Below, piece after piece: positions 31,403 to 37,685 of a stretch of DNA of 64,000 bases (position 1 is the stretch's first letter; every line of letters starts with the position of its first letter). Below the pieces are notes generated by a model that was not told where the DNA came from, did no database searches, and worked only from the letters and a program-made list of their open reading frames with translations. The translations under genes and the position numbers were made by a program. This stretch comes from Nocardioides mangrovicus (GTDB taxonomy: Bacteria > Actinomycetota > Actinomycetes > Propionibacteriales > Nocardioidaceae). Location of the stretch: contig NZ_RDBE01000007.1 of assembly GCF_003674065.1 (NCBI RefSeq), positions 373,972 to 437,971 on the forward strand, in the 5' to 3' direction.

Positions 31403-32653
31403 TCAGACCTCCCGAGCACCTCGCGCGAACACCCAGACCCGCATCGCCACGAACCGCATCACGGTCACCAGCAGGTTGGCCACGGTGAGGACGACGACCT
31501 CGACGCCGTGGTGTCCGTGACCGCTGCCGTTGCTGGCGTCGACCGCCCACAGCGCGCCGCTGGTGACCCCCAGCCCGATGAGGAAGATCACCAGGCCCTG
31601 GACCTGATGGCGGACCATCCCCTCGGGCCCGCTCACCCCGAACGTCAGACGCCGATTGGCAGCCGTGTTGCCCACGGCGGTGATGAGCAACGCCAGCAGG
31701 TTCGCCAGCTGCGCGTCCATCGAGGTCCGCAGCAGCAGGTAGATGCCGCCGTAGGCCAGCGTGGAGGCGACGCCGATCAGCCCGAACATCACCACCTGCA
31801 TCCCCAGGCGACCGCCGCCGGCGTCGGCGCTAGCCCGGCCGAGCCGGACGGCGACGTCGCGCACGGGGATGCGCCGGGTGATCAGGCCGCGGCCGAGCCG
31901 GGCGATGCCGCGCACGTCGTCGCGAGCGGTACGCCAGATGTCGACCCGGCTGTCGGGGTCGTCGGTCCAGTCGACCGGCACCTCGTGGATCCGCAGCCCG
32001 ATCCGTTCGGCGAGCACCAGCAGCTCTGTGTCGAAGAACCAGGCGTTGTCCTCCACCAGCGGCAGCACCTCGCGGGCGATGTCGGCCCGGATCGCCTTGA
32101 ACCCGCACTGGGCGTCGGAGAACCGGGCGCGCAGCGCTCCGCGCACCAGCAGGTTGTAGCCGCGCGAGATGACCTCGCGCTTGGCGCCCCGCACCACTCG
32201 CGAGCCCGAGCGCAGCCGGCTGCCGATGGCCAGGTCGGAGTGACCGCTGATGAGCGGCGCCACCAGCGGCAGCAGCGCGTTCAGGTCGGTGGACAGGTCG
32301 ACGTCCATGTAGACCAGCACCTGGGCCGCGGACCGGTTCCAGGCCCGCTTGAGGGCGCGGCCGCGGCCCTTCTCGGCCAGGTGCACCACGTGAACCTCGT
32401 CGTAGGCGTGGTCCAGCCGACGGGCCACGATGGCGGTGCCGTCGGTGCTGGCGTTGTCGGCGATCGTGACCCGGAACGACCACGGCAGCCGCCGCAGGTG
32501 GGCCACCACTCGCTCCACCGCCGGGGTCAGGGCCACCTCCTCGTTGTAGACCGGGATGACGACGTCGAGCACCGTCGCGGTAGCCGGCTCGCACGAGGCT
32601 CCGGCGGCGAGGCCGGCCACCGGATCGGTCCCGGACTGGTGGCTGGTGGTCAC
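31403..32653 (-). CDS. Family 2 glycosyltransferase fused to a GtrA domain
   Basis: This 416-residue protein joins two modules. Residues about 25-270 are a GT2 enzyme of the dolichyl/polyprenyl-phosphate sugar synthase type (VVIPVYNEE, DNASTDGT, YMDVDLSTD, then GSR and the cation-contact region). Residues about 285-410 form a four-helix GtrA domain (GLIGVASTLAYGG...). It probably makes a polyprenyl-phosphate sugar and helps flip it across the membrane. The GTG start overlaps the GT39 stop by four bases (GTGA), so it is coupled to that enzyme, which can use such a donor outside the membrane. Confidence 0.9.
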   Translation of the reverse strand: MTTSHQSGTDPVAGLAAGASCEPATATVLDVVIPVYNEEVALTPAVERVVAHLRRLPWSFRVTIADNASTDGTAIVARRLDHAYDEVHVVHLAEKGRGRALKRAWNRSAAQVLVYMDVDLSTDLNALLPLVAPLISGHSDLAIGSRLRSGSRVVRGAKREVISRGYNLLVRGALRARFSDAQCGFKAIRADIAREVLPLVEDNAWFFDTELLVLAERIGLRIHEVPVDWTDDPDSRVDIWRTARDDVRGIARLGRGLITRRIPVRDVAVRLGRASADAGGGRLGMQVVMFGLIGVASTLAYGGIYLLLRTSMDAQLANLLALLITAVGNTAANRRLTFGVSGPEGMVRHQVQGLVIFLIGLGVTSGALWAVDASNGSGHGHHGVEVVVLTVANLLVTVMRFVAMRVWVFARGAREV

Positions 32654-34770
32654 GTGGCACTCCCGTCGGTGGCGGTGGAGCTGCTGGCGGAGCTGGTGGG
32701 CTGGGTCAGGTCGTAGACGGTCGTGCCGCCGACGGTGGTCGCGGTGAAGTTCTGCGAGACCCAGGTGGAGATCGACGAGGAGTCGCTGCTGCCGCCGCTG
32801 GAGGAGCCGAAGCTCGACCCGCTGCCGATGAAGTAGTGGATCTTCTTGGCCGCGACGTAGGCCTTGAACTGCGCCAGCGTCGGGCTCGGGTCCGAGCCGT
32901 TGAACCCGCCGATCGCCATCACCGGTTCCTGGGTGGCCAGCTGGTAGCCCGAGGCGTTGTTGGATCCCACCGCCGCCGCGACCCAGGTGTAGCTCGACGC
33001 ATCGGCCTCGAGCAGCTTGGTCAGCGCCGAGGACGCCGTGCTGCCGTTCAGCAGACCGCCGGCACCGCCACCCATACCGCCGCCGCCTCGTCCGAAGCCA
33101 CCGCCAGTCCCGTTCTGGGTCTGGCCGTTCTGGGTCTGGCCGTTCTGGGTCTGGCCGTTCTGGTTGGGCATGCCCGGGGGCCGCCCGCCGCCGTTGCCAC
33201 CGCCACCGGGTCCGCCACGGCCGCCCCCGAAGCCGCTGCTGCCCGTGCTGGGGCCGGCGTCGACGATCGAGCCGCTGTGGCCGGTCGTCGCGGTCTGCAC
33301 GGCGTACGAGGCGGGGCCGGCCATGGTCGCCACCAGCACGCCGGCGCCGACGGCGATCGCGACCCGGCGCCCGTAGTGGCCGATGCCCACCACCAGCAGC
33401 GCCGAGACCACCCCCACCACCAGCACGACCCAGCGCAGCCACGGCACGAAGTCGGCCGAGCGGCCCAGGAGGTAGAAGGCCAGGACGCTGGTCAGCGAGA
33501 CGGTGAGCGCGGCGGCACCCTGGGCGAGAAGGGAATCGCGATGACGCCACAGCAGCCAGCCGCCGATGCCGACCAGGGCGCCGATCGCGGGGGACAGCGC
33601 CACCGTGTAATAGGCGTGGAAGATGCCGGCCATGAAGCTGAAGGTCAGTCCTGTGACCAGCAGCCACAGGCCCCACACGACCAGGCCCGCGCGCACCAGG
33701 TCGGTGCGCCGCTGCCCGAAGCCGGTGCGGCGGGTCAGCCACAGGCCCACGCCCAGCAGCACCAGGGCGGCCGGCATCAGCCAGGCGATCTGGCCGCCGA
33801 TCTCGGAGTTGAAGAGGCGCAGCAGCCCGGTCTGGCCCCACATGCCGCCGCCGGTGCCACCCGCGCCGCCACCGCCACCGCCGACCGAGCCGGTCTCCTC
33901 GCCGTTGAGCCGGCCCAGGCCGTTGTAGCCCAAGGTGAGCTCGAGGATCGAGTTGTTCTGCGAGCCGCCGATGTAGGGCCGGCTCGAGGCGGGCCACACC
34001 GACACGATCGCGATCCACCAGCCGGCCGAGACGATCATCGCCACCAGGGCCAGGGCCAGGTGGCCCAGCCGCTTGGGGATGCTGGTGTGGGCGAAGAGCA
34101 GGTAGACGACCGCCAGGGCCGGCAGCACCAAGAAGGCCTGCAACATCTTGGCCAGGAACGCCAGACCGACCAGCACGCCGACGAGGGTCACCCACCGCAG
34201 CGACGGCTTCTCCAGGGCCCGCATCGTCGCGTAGACCGCGCCGGTGAGGAGCAGCACCAGCATCGCGTCGGGGTTGTTGAACTTGAACATCAAGACCGCC
34301 ACCGGGGTGATGGCGAGCGTCAGACCGGCCAGCAGGGCCGCGCCGTTGGAGCCGGTGGTGCGGCGCACGGTGTTGTGCAGCAGCCAGACCGTCAGCACCC
34401 CCTCGATGGCCTGCGGCACCAGGATGCTCCACGAGGACAGCCCGAAGATCCGGACCGAGAGGTCCATGGGCCACAGTGCGAGCGGCGTCTTGTCCACGGT
34501 GATGGCGTTCGCGGCGTCGGAGGATCCGAAGAACATCGCCTTCCACGACACCGAGCCGGCCTGGACGGCCGCGGAGTAGAAGCTGTTGGCCCAGCCCGAG
34601 CGGTCCAGGGCCCACAGGTACAGCACGGCGGTCAGGGCGAGCAGCCCGACCAGTCCGGGACGGGCCCACCGCGGTCGTGTGCCGGTCCCGTCGCTCGTGT
34701 CGATGTGGGCCTGGCGCACCCGGAACGGCGCCGTGAGCTGGCTGCGGAAGGCAGTGCTGTCCGAGGTCAT
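32650..34770 (-). CDS. GT39 (ArnT/PMT-like) membrane glycosyltransferase with Gly-rich loop
   Basis: This 706-residue glycosyltransferase family 39 protein has a dozen or so membrane helices between about 40 and 520. The acidic catalytic region after the first helix is seen (WANSFYSAAVQ... then ITVDKTPLALW). Family members transfer a sugar from polyprenyl phosphate to protein or lipid on the outer face. An unusual Gly-rich, low-complexity stretch with three QTQNG repeats (DNA repeat 33110-33154) interrupts the C-terminal extracytoplasmic part, which ends in a small globular domain (about 600-690). A 7-4-7 box lies 44-61 bp upstream. It is first in the operon with GT2-GtrA. Confidence 0.88.
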   Translation of the reverse strand: MTSDSTAFRSQLTAPFRVRQAHIDTSDGTGTRPRWARPGLVGLLALTAVLYLWALDRSGWANSFYSAAVQAGSVSWKAMFFGSSDAANAITVDKTPLALWPMDLSVRIFGLSSWSILVPQAIEGVLTVWLLHNTVRRTTGSNGAALLAGLTLAITPVAVLMFKFNNPDAMLVLLLTGAVYATMRALEKPSLRWVTLVGVLVGLAFLAKMLQAFLVLPALAVVYLLFAHTSIPKRLGHLALALVAMIVSAGWWIAIVSVWPASSRPYIGGSQNNSILELTLGYNGLGRLNGEETGSVGGGGGGAGGTGGGMWGQTGLLRLFNSEIGGQIAWLMPAALVLLGVGLWLTRRTGFGQRRTDLVRAGLVVWGLWLLVTGLTFSFMAGIFHAYYTVALSPAIGALVGIGGWLLWRHRDSLLAQGAAALTVSLTSVLAFYLLGRSADFVPWLRWVVLVVGVVSALLVVGIGHYGRRVAIAVGAGVLVATMAGPASYAVQTATTGHSGSIVDAGPSTGSSGFGGGRGGPGGGGNGGGRPPGMPNQNGQTQNGQTQNGQTQNGTGGGFGRGGGGMGGGAGGLLNGSTASSALTKLLEADASSYTWVAAAVGSNNASGYQLATQEPVMAIGGFNGSDPSPTLAQFKAYVAAKKIHYFIGSGSSFGSSSGGSSDSSSISTWVSQNFTATTVGGTTVYDLTQPTSSASSSTATDGSAT
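33110..33154. repeat. 15-bp tandem repeat in the GT39 gene
   Basis: CCGTTCTGGGTCTGG occurs three times without change (33110, 33125, 33140), with a partial fourth copy. It encodes QTQNG repeats in the extracytoplasmic Gly-rich stretch. Confidence 0.88.
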
Positions 34771-34813
34771 GCCACGAGCCTGCGGGTCGGCTCTGAACGG
34801 ACCCCGTGCCGAG

Positions 34814-34831
34814 TCTGTGGCTGACCTGTGA
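34814..34831 (-). promoter_or_regulatory. PhoP-like 7-4-7 direct-repeat box before GT39
   Basis: On the minus strand it reads TCACAGG-TCAG-CCACAGA. The two heptamers are 11 bp apart centre to centre, like the TCACAGC-N4-TCACAGC site of mycobacterial PhoP. It lies 44-61 bp before the GT39 ATG, exactly the same distance as the box at 37134-37151 before the response regulator gene. Confidence 0.6.
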
Positions 34832-34882
34832 GGTGGGCCGGCCCCACGACGAGGGCCTGCGCCGAACCCAGGGCCGAACCGT

Positions 34883-34906
34883 GCCCGGCCCGGGCCTGGG
34901 CCGGGC
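34883..34906 (-). terminator. Hairpin after the PhoR-like kinase gene
   Basis: The nine-base arms GCCCGGCCC and GGGCCGGGC are perfect around the loop GGGCCT. It follows the kinase stop (34917) on the transcribed strand and separates that operon from the GT39 promoter. Confidence 0.6.
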
Positions 34907-34916
34907 CGGACAAGAG

Positions 34917-36359
34917 TCAGGGGAGCAGGAGAGTGAACGTGGTGCTGCCCGGTCGGCTGCCGAGGCGGGCGGTGCCGCCGTGGGCCTCGGTGATGGCCTG
35001 CACGAGCGACAGGCCCAGCCCGGCGCCGCCGGAGGCCCGGGTGCGCGAGGAGTCACCGCGGGTGAAGCGCTCGAAGACGTGGTCGGCGAGCTCGGCCGGG
35101 ACACCGGGACCGTCGTCGTGGACCGTGACGGTGACCGGCTCGCCGTCGGCGGGTCGCGGCCGCACGCCGACGGTGACGGTCGTGCCGGGCGGGGTGTGAC
35201 GGCGGGCGTTGTTGATCAGGTTGGTCACCACCTGGTGCAGCCGCTGCTCGTCGCCGACGGCGCCGACCGGCTCATCGGGTAGGTCGAGGCGCCACTCGTG
35301 GTCGGGCGCGACGACGCGGGCGTCGGCCACCGCCTCCAGCAGCAGCCGGGTGAGGTCGACCTCCTCGCGCTCGAGAGGCCGGCCGGAGTCGAGCCGGGCC
35401 AGCAGCAGCAGGTCGTTGACCAGCGACGTCATCCGGGTCGCCTCGGTCTCGACCTTGTTCATCGCTGCCGTCAGCGCCTCGGGATCGTCTGGCGTGCGAC
35501 GGCTCAGCTCGGCGTAGCCGTGGATGGTGGAGAGCGGCGTCCGCAGCTCGTGGGAGGCGTCGGCGACGAACTGACGCACGTGCTGCTCGCTGCGATGCCG
35601 GGCGTCGAGGGCGGCGTCGACGTGGTCCAGGAGCGTGTTGAGCGCGGACCCGACCCGACCGACCTCGGTGTGCGGGTCGGTGTAGCGGGCGTCCACCCGG
35701 GTCTCGATGGACTGGCCGCCGGCCTCCAGCGGAATCGCGGTGACGTCGTAGGCGGTGGCGGCGACCTCGTGCAGCGGGTGCAGCTGGCGGCGCACCAGGA
35801 TGGTGCCGGCGCCGGCCGCCACCAGGACCCCCCCGACCGTGAGCAGCAGCGACCAGCGCAGCAGACTGGCCTCGGCTCGGTGGATCTCCTCCATGGAGAC
35901 CCCGACCGCGAAGGCGTTGCCGTCGCTGTCGGTACCGACGAGCACACGGTAGGAGCCGAGGCCTGAGAGGTCGACCGTGTGCGGGTGGTCGTCCACCGAC
36001 ACGCCGCGAAGCTGCCGGCGGACAGTGCTGCTGATGGCCTTGACGTCGCCGTCGTCGTTGGTGACCCCCTGCTGTTGCCGGGTGCCGCTGTCGGATCCGG
36101 AGAGCTGCACGAACAAGGTGCCCTTGGCCACGAACGGGCGGAACCCGCGCTGGGACCCGTTGGGTGTCGGCGCGCTCGGGGCGGGCCCGTTGCGCTGGGC
36201 GCGCTGCTGGGTGTCTTGCAGCTGCGAGTCCTGCCGCGAGACCAGGTAGCGGCTCATGGCCAGTGTGGTCACGAGCGCGACCAGCAGGCTGACGACCGCC
36301 ACCAGCGCCACGGCCGTGACGACCAGGCGGGTGGTGAGGGTGCGGGGGACGAGCCTCAC
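34917..36359 (-). CDS. PhoR/EnvZ-type sensor histidine kinase
   Basis: This 480-residue kinase has two membrane helices (about 10-33 and 165-187) flanking an extracytoplasmic sensor loop rich in Gln/Asn (LQDTQQRAQRNGPAPSA...). A HAMP-like linker (about 188-250) follows, then HisKA with His270 (ADASHELRTPLSTIHGYAEL) and HATPase_c (NLINNARRHT, DDGPGVP, RASGGAGLGLSLVQ). The GTG start overlaps the regulator stop by four bases (GTGA). It should phosphorylate the OmpR-type regulator upstream. The signal is probably at the cell surface. Confidence 0.9.
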   Translation of the reverse strand: MRLVPRTLTTRLVVTAVALVAVVSLLVALVTTLAMSRYLVSRQDSQLQDTQQRAQRNGPAPSAPTPNGSQRGFRPFVAKGTLFVQLSGSDSGTRQQQGVTNDDGDVKAISSTVRRQLRGVSVDDHPHTVDLSGLGSYRVLVGTDSDGNAFAVGVSMEEIHRAEASLLRWSLLLTVGGVLVAAGAGTILVRRQLHPLHEVAATAYDVTAIPLEAGGQSIETRVDARYTDPHTEVGRVGSALNTLLDHVDAALDARHRSEQHVRQFVADASHELRTPLSTIHGYAELSRRTPDDPEALTAAMNKVETEATRMTSLVNDLLLLARLDSGRPLEREEVDLTRLLLEAVADARVVAPDHEWRLDLPDEPVGAVGDEQRLHQVVTNLINNARRHTPPGTTVTVGVRPRPADGEPVTVTVHDDGPGVPAELADHVFERFTRGDSSRTRASGGAGLGLSLVQAITEAHGGTARLGSRPGSTTFTLLLP

Positions 36360-37090
36360 TCGACTGCTGGCTTGAGGACGTACCCGGCGCCCCGCATGGT
36401 GTGGATCATCGGGTCGCGGCCGGCGTCGATCTTCTTGCGCAGGTAGGAGATGTAGAGCTCGACGACGTTGGCCTGGCCGCCGAAGTCGTAGTTCCACACG
36501 CGGTCGAGGATCTGGGCCTTCGAGAGCACTCGCTTGGGGTTGCGCATCAAGAACCGCAGCAGCTCGAACTCGGTGGCGGTCAGGGTGATCTCCGTCTCGG
36601 CGCGGCGGACCTCGTGGCTGTCCTCGTCCAAGGAAAGGTCGCCGACCACCAAGACGTTGCTGGACTCGACGTCGGTGGCGCCGGAGCGGCGCAGCAGGCC
36701 GCGCAGCCGGGCCACGACCTCCTCGAGGCTGAACGGCTTGGTGACGTAGTCGTCGCCGCCGGCGGTGAGGCCGGCGACCCGGTCCTCGACGGAGTCGCGG
36801 GCGGTGAGGAACAGCACGGGGACGTCGCCCTGCTGGGCGCGCAGCCGGTTGAGGACCTCCATGCCGTCGAAGTCGGGCAACATCATGTCGAGCACGACGG
36901 CGTCGGGGCGCACCGACTTGGCGGCGGCCACGGCCTTGCTGCCCGTGCCGGCGACGTCGACCTCCCAGCCCTCGTAGCGCAGCGCCATGCGCAGCAGCTC
37001 GGCGATGTTGGGCTCGTCGTCGACGACCAGCACGCGCAGCGGCGAGCCGTCGGGGCGGGTGAGCTGGGGGTGCTTGTCGACCAGTGGCAT
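36356..37090 (-). CDS. PhoP-like OmpR-family response regulator
   Basis: This 244-residue regulator has a receiver domain (Asp24/Asp25, phosphoacceptor Asp68, ALFLT-type switch VLFLTARDS, Lys in YVTKPFS) and a winged-helix DNA-binding domain (about 140-240). The stretch GLTAGGDDYVTKPFSLEEV and the ending NYDFGGQANVVELYISYLRKK are close to mycobacterial PhoP. Consistent with this, a TCACAGG-N4-GCACAGG box lies 44-61 bp before its start, suggesting autoregulation. Matching boxes precede GT39 and the Gly/Gln-rich membrane protein, so these are its likely regulon. Confidence 0.9.
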   Translation of the reverse strand: MPLVDKHPQLTRPDGSPLRVLVVDDEPNIAELLRMALRYEGWEVDVAGTGSKAVAAAKSVRPDAVVLDMMLPDFDGMEVLNRLRAQQGDVPVLFLTARDSVEDRVAGLTAGGDDYVTKPFSLEEVVARLRGLLRRSGATDVESSNVLVVGDLSLDEDSHEVRRAETEITLTATEFELLRFLMRNPKRVLSKAQILDRVWNYDFGGQANVVELYISYLRKKIDAGRDPMIHTMRGAGYVLKPAVE

Positions 37091-37133
37091 AGGCCTACTG
37101 TGCGCCTGGCAAATACCTGTGCGCCATGGAGGA

Positions 37134-37151
37134 CCTGTGCAGAACCTGTGA
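37134..37151 (-). promoter_or_regulatory. PhoP-like 7-4-7 direct-repeat box before the regulator gene
   Basis: On the minus strand it reads TCACAGG-TTCT-GCACAGG. It is 44-61 bp upstream of the regulator ATG at 37090. A further GCACAGG half-site is at 37116-37122 and a GCACAGT at 37097-37103, so several regulator molecules may bind in a row. Confidence 0.62.
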
Positions 37152-37178
37152 GAACCGGACAGGTCGCGGACGGCAGGG

Positions 37179-37196
37179 TCACAGGCGAATCTCAGT
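37179..37196 (+). promoter_or_regulatory. PhoP-like 7-4-7 box before the Gly/Gln-rich membrane protein
   Basis: TCACAGG-CGAA-TCTCAGT on the plus strand, 22-39 bp before the ATG at 37218. The first heptamer is perfect; the second is weaker. It shares the 127-bp divergent region with the regulator's own box. Confidence 0.5.
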
Positions 37197-37217
37197 CGAC
37201 GCGGTCAGGATCGACCC

Positions 37218-37685
37218 ATGAGCCAGGAACCCGTGTCCTTGCCTGCCCACGCGCCTGATGCCGCGTCCGACGCTGCAGCCGACCCCACGCCTCCTGCTCG
37301 GACCCGTCTCGCGGACCGGCTCTGGGCGCTGCGGGCCGTCATCGCGGTCGCACTGGCCTCCGTGATCATCGGCGGCCTCGGCGGCGCCGCGATCGCCAAA
37401 GCCGGCCAGAGCGAGGGCGGCAACCGGTTCGGTCCCGGTCAGGGCGGGTTCGGCGGCATGCGCGGCTTCCGTGGCGGCGGCGGGCAGCCGGGCCAGGGAC
37501 AGGGCCCGGGCCAGGGCCAGGGCCAGGGCGGGTTCGGGGGCGGCTCCGGTACGCCCCAGCAGCAGAACGGCCAGCAGAACGGGCAGCAGAACGGCCGGCA
37601 GCAGCCGCCCGCCGCGTCCGCATCCCCGTCCGCATCCCCGTCCGCATCCCCGTCCGCATCCCCGTCCGCAGGGCAGACGTCGTAG
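37218..37685 (+). CDS. Gly/Gln-rich single-pass membrane protein
   Basis: This 155-residue protein has a cytoplasmic N-terminus, one membrane helix (about 40-62, VIAVALASVIIGGLGGAAIA) and a low-complexity outer part: Gly-rich (FGGMRGFRGGGG), GQ repeats, QNGQQNGQQNG, then SASP repeats from a 12-bp tandem DNA repeat. No fold or enzyme motif is seen. It is divergent from the PhoP-like regulator with a box in its own promoter. The QNG repeats echo those in the GT39 protein, so it may be a surface protein that this system modifies or anchors; that is inference. Confidence 0.72.
   Translation: MSQEPVSLPAHAPDAASDAAADPTPPARTRLADRLWALRAVIAVALASVIIGGLGGAAIAKAGQSEGGNRFGPGQGGFGGMRGFRGGGGQPGQGQGPGQGQGQGGFGGGSGTPQQQNGQQNGQQNGRQQPPAASASPSASPSASPSASPSAGQTS
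37617..37670 (+). repeat. 12-bp tandem repeat encoding SASP
   Basis: TCCGCATCCCCG occurs four times in a row (37617, 37629, 37641, 37653) with six bases of a fifth, encoding the SASP tail of the Gly/Gln-rich membrane protein. Confidence 0.9.

Follow-up and report, generated by a model that had tools for sequence, protein, structure and literature searches.

The stretch analyzed here is a 64,000-nucleotide window of the Nocardioides mangrovicus genome (contig NZ_RDBE01000007.1, positions 373,972 to 437,971 of the forward strand), in which a two-component system adjoins an operon for membrane glycosyltransferases (Table 1). The response regulator has a receiver domain and a winged-helix Trans_reg_C domain (Pfam), i.e. 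it is of the OmpR/PhoB type, and is followed by a sensor histidine kinase; downstream, a GT39/YkcB-like enzyme precedes a GT2-GtrA fusion whose start codon overlaps the GT39 stop codon. GT-A synthase, GtrA flippase and GT-C transferase domains were all found (Pfam), which is the domain set of a multi-component transmembrane glycosylation system. On the opposite strand from the regulator lies the gene for a small Gly/Gln-rich protein, for which Pfam and NCBIfam scans gave no family match. Boxes of two TCACAGG-like heptamers precede the GT39, regulator and Gly/Gln-rich protein genes, and our analysis indicates that they are very probably binding sites of the adjacent PhoP-like activator of the OmpR family, which would govern a small set of envelope genes along with its own operon.

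Table 1. Features of the window (coordinates are window positions) and predicted targets in the host genome
Feature	Position	Strand	Placement or promoter type	Basis or remark
GT2 glycosyltransferase fused to GtrA/DPMS membrane domain	31403..32653	minus		Pfam PF00535, PF04138
GT39/YkcB-like membrane glycosyltransferase (GT-C) with Gly/Gln/Asn-rich insert	32650..34770	minus		Pfam PMT_2, YkcB_C
Sensor histidine kinase	34917..36359	minus	overlaps regulator stop codon	Pfam HisKA, HATPase_c
OmpR/PhoB-type response regulator, PhoP sister family	36356..37090	minus		Pfam, PDB match to PhoP, tree
Gly/Gln-rich small protein, membrane-anchored	37218..37685	plus		anchor read from sequence
GT39 box TCACAGGTCAGCCACAGA, subsites 1 and 2, TCACAGG-N4-CCACAGA	34814-34831	minus	44-61 bp upstream of GT39 ATG (34770)	
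GT39 box, degenerate subsites 3 and 4	34803-34809 and 34792-34798	minus		
Regulator (autoregulation) box TCACAGGTTCTGCACAGG, subsites 1 and 2, TCACAGG-N4-GCACAGG	37134-37151	minus	44-61 bp upstream of regulator ATG (37090)	
Regulator box, third subsite CCATGGC	37123-37129	minus		CATGG kept in most relatives
Gly/Gln-rich gene box TCACAGGCGAATCTCAGT	37179-37196	plus	22-39 bp upstream of ATG 37218; two-subsite type	
Predicted -10 hexamer CAGGCT	34777..34782	minus	6 bases upstream of GT39 ATG	
Predicted -10 hexamer CACAGT	37097..37102	minus	6 bases upstream of regulator ATG	
Predicted -10 hexamer CAGGAT	37206..37211	plus	6 bases upstream of ATG 37218	
Host target: regulator-kinase operon			four-subsite	
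Host target: window GT39-GT2 operon			four-subsite	
Host target: Gly/Gln-rich protein gene			two-subsite	
Host target: HlyD/MacA-like adaptor, then ABC ATPase, MacB-like permease, exported protein			four-subsite	
Host target: exported protein with Dioxygenase_C domain			two-subsite	
Host target: small Ser/Thr-rich protein ahead of ApbE and ferric-reductase-like gene			two-subsite	
Host target: trypsin/PDZ (HtrA-like) protease with Gly/Gln-rich linker				found by two-subsite pattern
Host target: second GT2-GT39 operon	box C1:200548-200565 (host genome)		four-subsite	found by architecture scan

A preliminary description of this DNA had reported the three boxes, and all of them are present at the positions and with the spacing it gave; the equal distances claimed for the GT39 and regulator starts were measured exactly so. 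We also found an additional partial heptamer pair that was missing there, GCACAGG-TATT-TGCCAGG (37105-37122, minus strand, 3 mismatches), which lies between the regulator box and the regulator ATG and overlaps the predicted fourth subsite.

Conservation of the motif in relatives had been proposed as a check, and it was measured in a genus sample of 24 genomes including the host's own; the regulator is present at a minimum of 81% identity in 22 of these, G005 and G020 being without it. We found TCACAGG-N4-TCACAGG upstream of the regulator gene in 21/22 genomes at a match of at least 12/14 (22/22 at at least 11/14), upstream of GT39 in 8/16 loci (16/16 at the looser cut) and upstream of an unlinked MacA-like gene in 12/13 loci at at least 12/14. 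These counts leave out L053, the GT39 gene of G001 at a contig end, as well as L057 and L058, which are second pieces. With the same cut of at least 12/14, 300 permuted heptamers gave means of 0.14 (regulator), 0.04 (GT39) and 0.05 (MacA), with maxima of 8, 4 and 3. The spacer is fixed at 4 bp, alternative spacers of 0 to 11 yielding at most 3, and the sites have the form of PhoP-type sites, i.e. two TCACAGn heptamers with a strict 4-bp spacer. Across 24 GT39-gene loci (L061-L084, 4.8-12 kb), no match of at least 12/14 fell inside the stretches matched by seven query proteins from the window.

The boxes are held at a fixed distance from a -10 element. In an alignment of 48 four-subsite promoters (regulator, GT39 and MacA), the -10 hexamer has the form nAnnnT, with its A and T at 50 and 54 bases past the box start in 48/48, and the start codon follows 6-8 bases further in 46/48; no rival pair of A/T offsets reaches 6. 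Hence, the promoters look leaderless and transcripts probably begin at the start codon, as judged from spacing, and the equal 44-61 bp distances arise because box-to-(-10) spacing is fixed in these leaderless-looking promoters. Three GT39 loci (L033, L041, L042) were left out of the alignment because the scanner had picked subsites 3 and 4; two of them fit once re-registered, and L042 fits only with CCACAGA read as subsite 1 (by eye). Heptamers repeat in 11-bp steps (7 bp plus the 4-bp spacer), many GT39 relatives having four in phase (TCACAGG, CCACAGA-like, CCACACG and TCGCAG), and the last subsite ends 9 bases upstream of the -10 hexamer in both the two- and the four-subsite type. In four-subsite promoters (regulator, both GT operons, MacA), the distal subsites are strong and the proximal ones weaker. 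Two-subsite promoters, those of the Gly/Gln-rich protein, the ApbE operon, the dioxygenase-fold protein and HtrA, have the promoter-proximal pair only. At the Gly-rich genes, the -10 A and T stand at 28 and 32 past the box start in 20/22 loci, and no other offset reaches 5; the box of this gene, present as claimed and previously called weaker, is an ordinary two-subsite version of the promoter.

Among solved structures, the best match of the window regulator is Mycobacterium tuberculosis PhoP (PDB, E 6e-82). A midpoint-rooted tree of 91 regulators, with some long branches, puts the window protein in a clade of 45 and PhoP (L252, L254, L259) among the other 46, with support of 98/98. Hence, the regulator is not a PhoP orthologue; the resemblance to PhoP noted earlier stands for the direct-repeat boxes and for the closest solved relative, and the protein itself belongs to a sister family. 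Five of the six PhoP base contacts (N212, V213, E215, S216, Y217 and Y220) are identical in the window regulator, and Ser216 is replaced by Leu, as it is almost throughout the clade, where a few sequences have Ile or Val.

Residue 212 of PhoP, Asn208 in the window regulator, is Asn in most of the clade, Ser in Microbacteriaceae and His in a group that includes Streptomyces, and we found that it covaries with the central base of the box: Asn goes with C in 201/218 half-sites, Ser with T in 49/56 and His with G in 27/32. The central base played no part in choosing the boxes, and counts come from promoters scoring at least 9 of 12. Among alignment columns with <20% gaps, residue 212 ranks first, giving 0.97 of the 1.10 bits on the central base (the next gives 0.84), for 130 promoters with agreeing half-sites; 23 with disagreeing half-sites were left out. 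Within the seven-base heptamer, clear covariation is confined to the fourth position, with 0.71 bits against 0.08 or less at the others. In the PhoP crystal, according to excerpts of PMC4832192, Asn212 bonds to the central C of the heptamer. For sampling, 60 of the 105 regulator matches without a locus were fetched, favoring families other than Streptomyces; after leaving out three duplicates, L235 (no upstream sequence) and L110 (frame not found), 165 remained, 12 of which had a best box below 9 of 12 and were not counted (11 Asn-type and the single Thr-type, both of whose half-sites have T). L292, a long-branch row placed in the clade by the tree, was left out of the residue-base tabulation.

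Outside the genus, the linkage of regulator, kinase and GT39 within the flanks (up to 6 kb) was found at 13/36 named clade loci, in genera that include Streptomyces, Amycolatopsis, Terrabacter, Nocardia and a Mycobacterium. Among Asn-type promoters beyond the genus, 53/89 have the -10 A at offset 50 and a start codon another 6-8 bases along; 8 have offset 28 and 7 have offset 39, i.e. 11-bp steps. Ser-type promoters have offset 27 in 19/28, 50 in 5 and 28 in 2. The His212-type regulators (L236, L247, L295-L305, L307, L308) mostly have tandem G-centered boxes (TCAGAGG-like) and hardly ever the leaderless spacing; hence, their promoters may have leaders. GT2-GT39 genes are neighbors of true PhoP-PhoR in Mycobacterium sp. 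AZCC_0083 and Williamsia deligens (L259, L268), a hint that PhoP-type regulators and this glycosylation system have long been associated.

Targets were predicted from box and geometry. The host genome has 40 box-like sites compared to 14 for a reversed control; six of the 40 fit the geometry ahead of an open frame, and all six are at named regulon genes. With the HtrA-like protease gene found by the two-subsite pattern and the operon found by the architecture scan, the geometry marks about eight predicted host promoters (Table 1). The exported protein after the MacB-like permease has a DUF5666 match below the cut-off. In the 24 genus genomes, the two-subsite pattern gave 30 matches and its reversed control 0, and 29 of the 30 precede genes whose translations read as membrane or exported proteins: 9 Gly-rich, 9 small Ser/Thr-rich (7 of them adjoining an ApbE match), 10 dioxygenase-like and 1 HtrA, with 1 match before nothing sensible. 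Of the dioxygenase-like proteins, 1 is Pfam-confirmed, 5 more lie beside matches from a separate search and 4 were assigned by the same motif read by eye. The architecture scan of loci L061-L084 gave 33 four-subsite and 16 two-subsite matches vs 0 and 2 for the reversed heptamer, 3 of the 16 being proximal subsites of four-subsite arrays. With a looser pattern, the genus yielded 42 matches and the control 7. The regulator/GT39 locus accounts for 23 of the 42, and among the 19 that lie off it, G007:C10 coincides with L194, the two-subsite match at the ApbE operon. We rejected L120, L128, L147, L143, L130, L132, L133, L136, L137 and L139 as regulon members, because the genes that they precede or fall within are of a different or uncertain nature.

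Autoregulation, as the preliminary description had proposed, is likely, the box standing ahead of the regulator's own gene as counted above. Its surface glycosylation regulon stood in part: control of GT39-GT2 is supported and a second GT2-GT39 operon has the same promoter type, but the predicted regulon is wider, with a MacAB-like exporter, an HtrA-like protease, an ApbE operon and an exported dioxygenase-fold protein. A predicted autoregulated envelope regulon that includes surface glycosylation is well supported at the sequence level.

Some neighboring observations concern the same genes. QNG-type tandem repeats occur in both the GT39 insert (33100-33210) and the Gly-rich protein (37540-37600) of the window. 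The idea of within-genome co-evolution of the Gly/Gln-rich tail with the GT39 insert was set aside, as the similarity did not reach significance (mean 4-mer overlap of 0.018 within vs 0.016 between genomes, permutation p = 0.10, 15 genomes). Two genomes, G004 and G016, have no kinase match beside the regulator; in both, a loose-pattern box lies near the start of a sensor-kinase-like gene at another locus (L135 in G004:C19 and L131 in G016:C23, by eye). Each of the two also encodes, at about 1.1 kb from an ApbE gene, another regulator that shares 69% identity with that of the window (G004:C91:13484, G016:C6:39056).

We propose that the kinase would sense an envelope condition and that the phosphorylated regulator would occupy the position of the -35 element as a tandem dimer or tetramer. 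Bound there, it would recruit RNA polymerase and activate the envelope genes and its own operon, both being transcribed without a leader. From what is known of their families, GT2-GtrA would then load a sugar on polyprenyl phosphate and flip it, and the YkcB-like GT-C enzyme would transfer the sugar to an acceptor outside the membrane. PhoP itself, binding cooperatively, is reported to form assemblies as large as trimers and tetramers where the repeats are suitably arranged (excerpts of PMC4832192).

Several findings weigh against this reading. Within the window, 7 boxes with at most 3 mismatches were observed vs 6.94 expected from shuffled sequence, so by the window alone the boxes are indistinguishable from chance, and the count proves nothing; the case is carried by conservation, by the fixed box-to-(-10) distance and by covariation with the regulator. 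One permuted heptamer reached 19/22 regulator promoters at the looser cut of at least 11, which makes that figure weak on its own; neighboring conserved sequence is the likely explanation. Genus promoters are related by descent, so 48/48 is not 48 independent events. The covariation, too, rests on two switches on the tree, and it is strong because the column is a crystallographic contact, not because of sample size. Outside the genus, the strict consensus at at least 12/14 was found in only 14/35 named clade members with upstream DNA, a shortfall that is due in part to an altered central base and in part to weak boxes, and the leaderless geometry is nearly absent from His212-type promoters (phased offset in 1/16). 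Most of the 14 off-locus looser-pattern matches examined (of 19) are not ahead of recognizable regulon genes. G008, G012 and G021 have the regulator yet no match to the two-subsite pattern, and G022 has it yet no looser-pattern match. Finally, position is the one ground on which activation would be preferred to repression.

The boxes might bind the regulator and mainly repress, at least at its own promoter, which we consider unlikely. The four-subsite arrays are strong far upstream and weak proximally, so proximal occupancy could differ between genes; however, the arrays stop 9 bp short of the -10, at the -35 place, and leave the -10 itself uncovered. An array at the -35 place and clear of the -10 is the layout expected of PhoB-type activators. 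That another OmpR-family regulator, e.g. a true PhoP orthologue, reads the boxes is less probable still: the heptamer is close to the mycobacterial PhoP TCACAGC (excerpts of PMC4832192) and the host encodes a second regulator that is 51% identical, but changes of the central base go along with changes at residue 212 in the window-type regulator, boxes precede this regulator's own gene in every genus locus at the looser cut, and G005 and G020, which are without it, have no pattern match (two genomes are few). The fixed distance to the -10 and the start codon would also suit a promoter element of an alternative sigma factor; this is very improbable, as the 11-bp tandem phasing in up to four copies, the strict spacer and the residue-base covariation fit an OmpR-type regulator. 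Chance similarity in a G+C-rich window, for which the shuffle mean speaks, is negligibly probable given the conservation, spacing and geometry in many genomes.

With binding by the adjacent regulator as the preferred reading, a broader picture can be put forward tentatively. The regulator may represent a phylum-wide actinobacterial sister family of PhoP with rigid leaderless promoters, whose code might have changed at least twice through one residue (Asn-C, Ser-T, His-G) with the promoters following; its regulon might link exported low-complexity proteins (Gly/Gln- or Ser/Thr-rich) to one or two lipid-linked glycosylation machines, of which these proteins may be the substrates. A widespread two-component system for which we found no description gains a testable regulon, with a promoter code precise enough for sequence-based target finding. 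The residue-base match also offers a one-residue-one-base hypothesis for specificity change in OmpR-family regulators, and for YkcB-type transmembrane glycosylation the analysis names a likely partner in regulation, together with exported proteins that are candidates for acting with it.

Searches of open-access papers found no description of the regulon or of the residue-base code, which is weak evidence of novelty, as subscription papers lie mostly outside that literature. Among candidate analogues, we rejected CrsR of Actinosynnema, for which the text available reports no motif for comparison, and HexRK/HexSDF of Clostridioides difficile, a kinase-controlled glycolipid operon with different enzymes. 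The Streptomyces systems CutRS and CssRS are similar in that they control HtrA-type proteases, but a CutR-type system was rejected since CutR reads TAWATAAA rather than TCACAGG repeats (both from excerpts of PMC12802291); the comparison of sites covered CutR only.

The glycosylation genes are like YkcB-YkcC, CsbB-GtcA-YfhO and GtlA/GtlB in combining a GT-A enzyme, a GtrA-family flippase and a GT-C enzyme with a PMT_2 domain; unlike in those systems, the window has a single gene in which the GT2 and GtrA parts are joined. The acceptor of YkcBC is unknown according to excerpts of PMC8035078, in which a term search for "two-component" found nothing.

The closest comparison is with PhoP-PhoR of M. 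tuberculosis. Its sites are likewise 7-bp direct repeats with a 4-bp spacer and a nearly identical heptamer. PhoP has five of its six base-contacting residues (excerpts of PMC4832192) in common with the window regulator, and it binds upstream of its own gene (excerpts of PMC4038636). The leaderless-looking fixed geometry was measured on the promoters of the predicted regulon here. In contrast to PhoP, the seventh base of the first heptamer is mostly G here rather than C, the window regulator belongs to the sister clade with Leu in place of Ser216, and the predicted regulon is an envelope set of GT39, MacAB, HtrA and ApbE.

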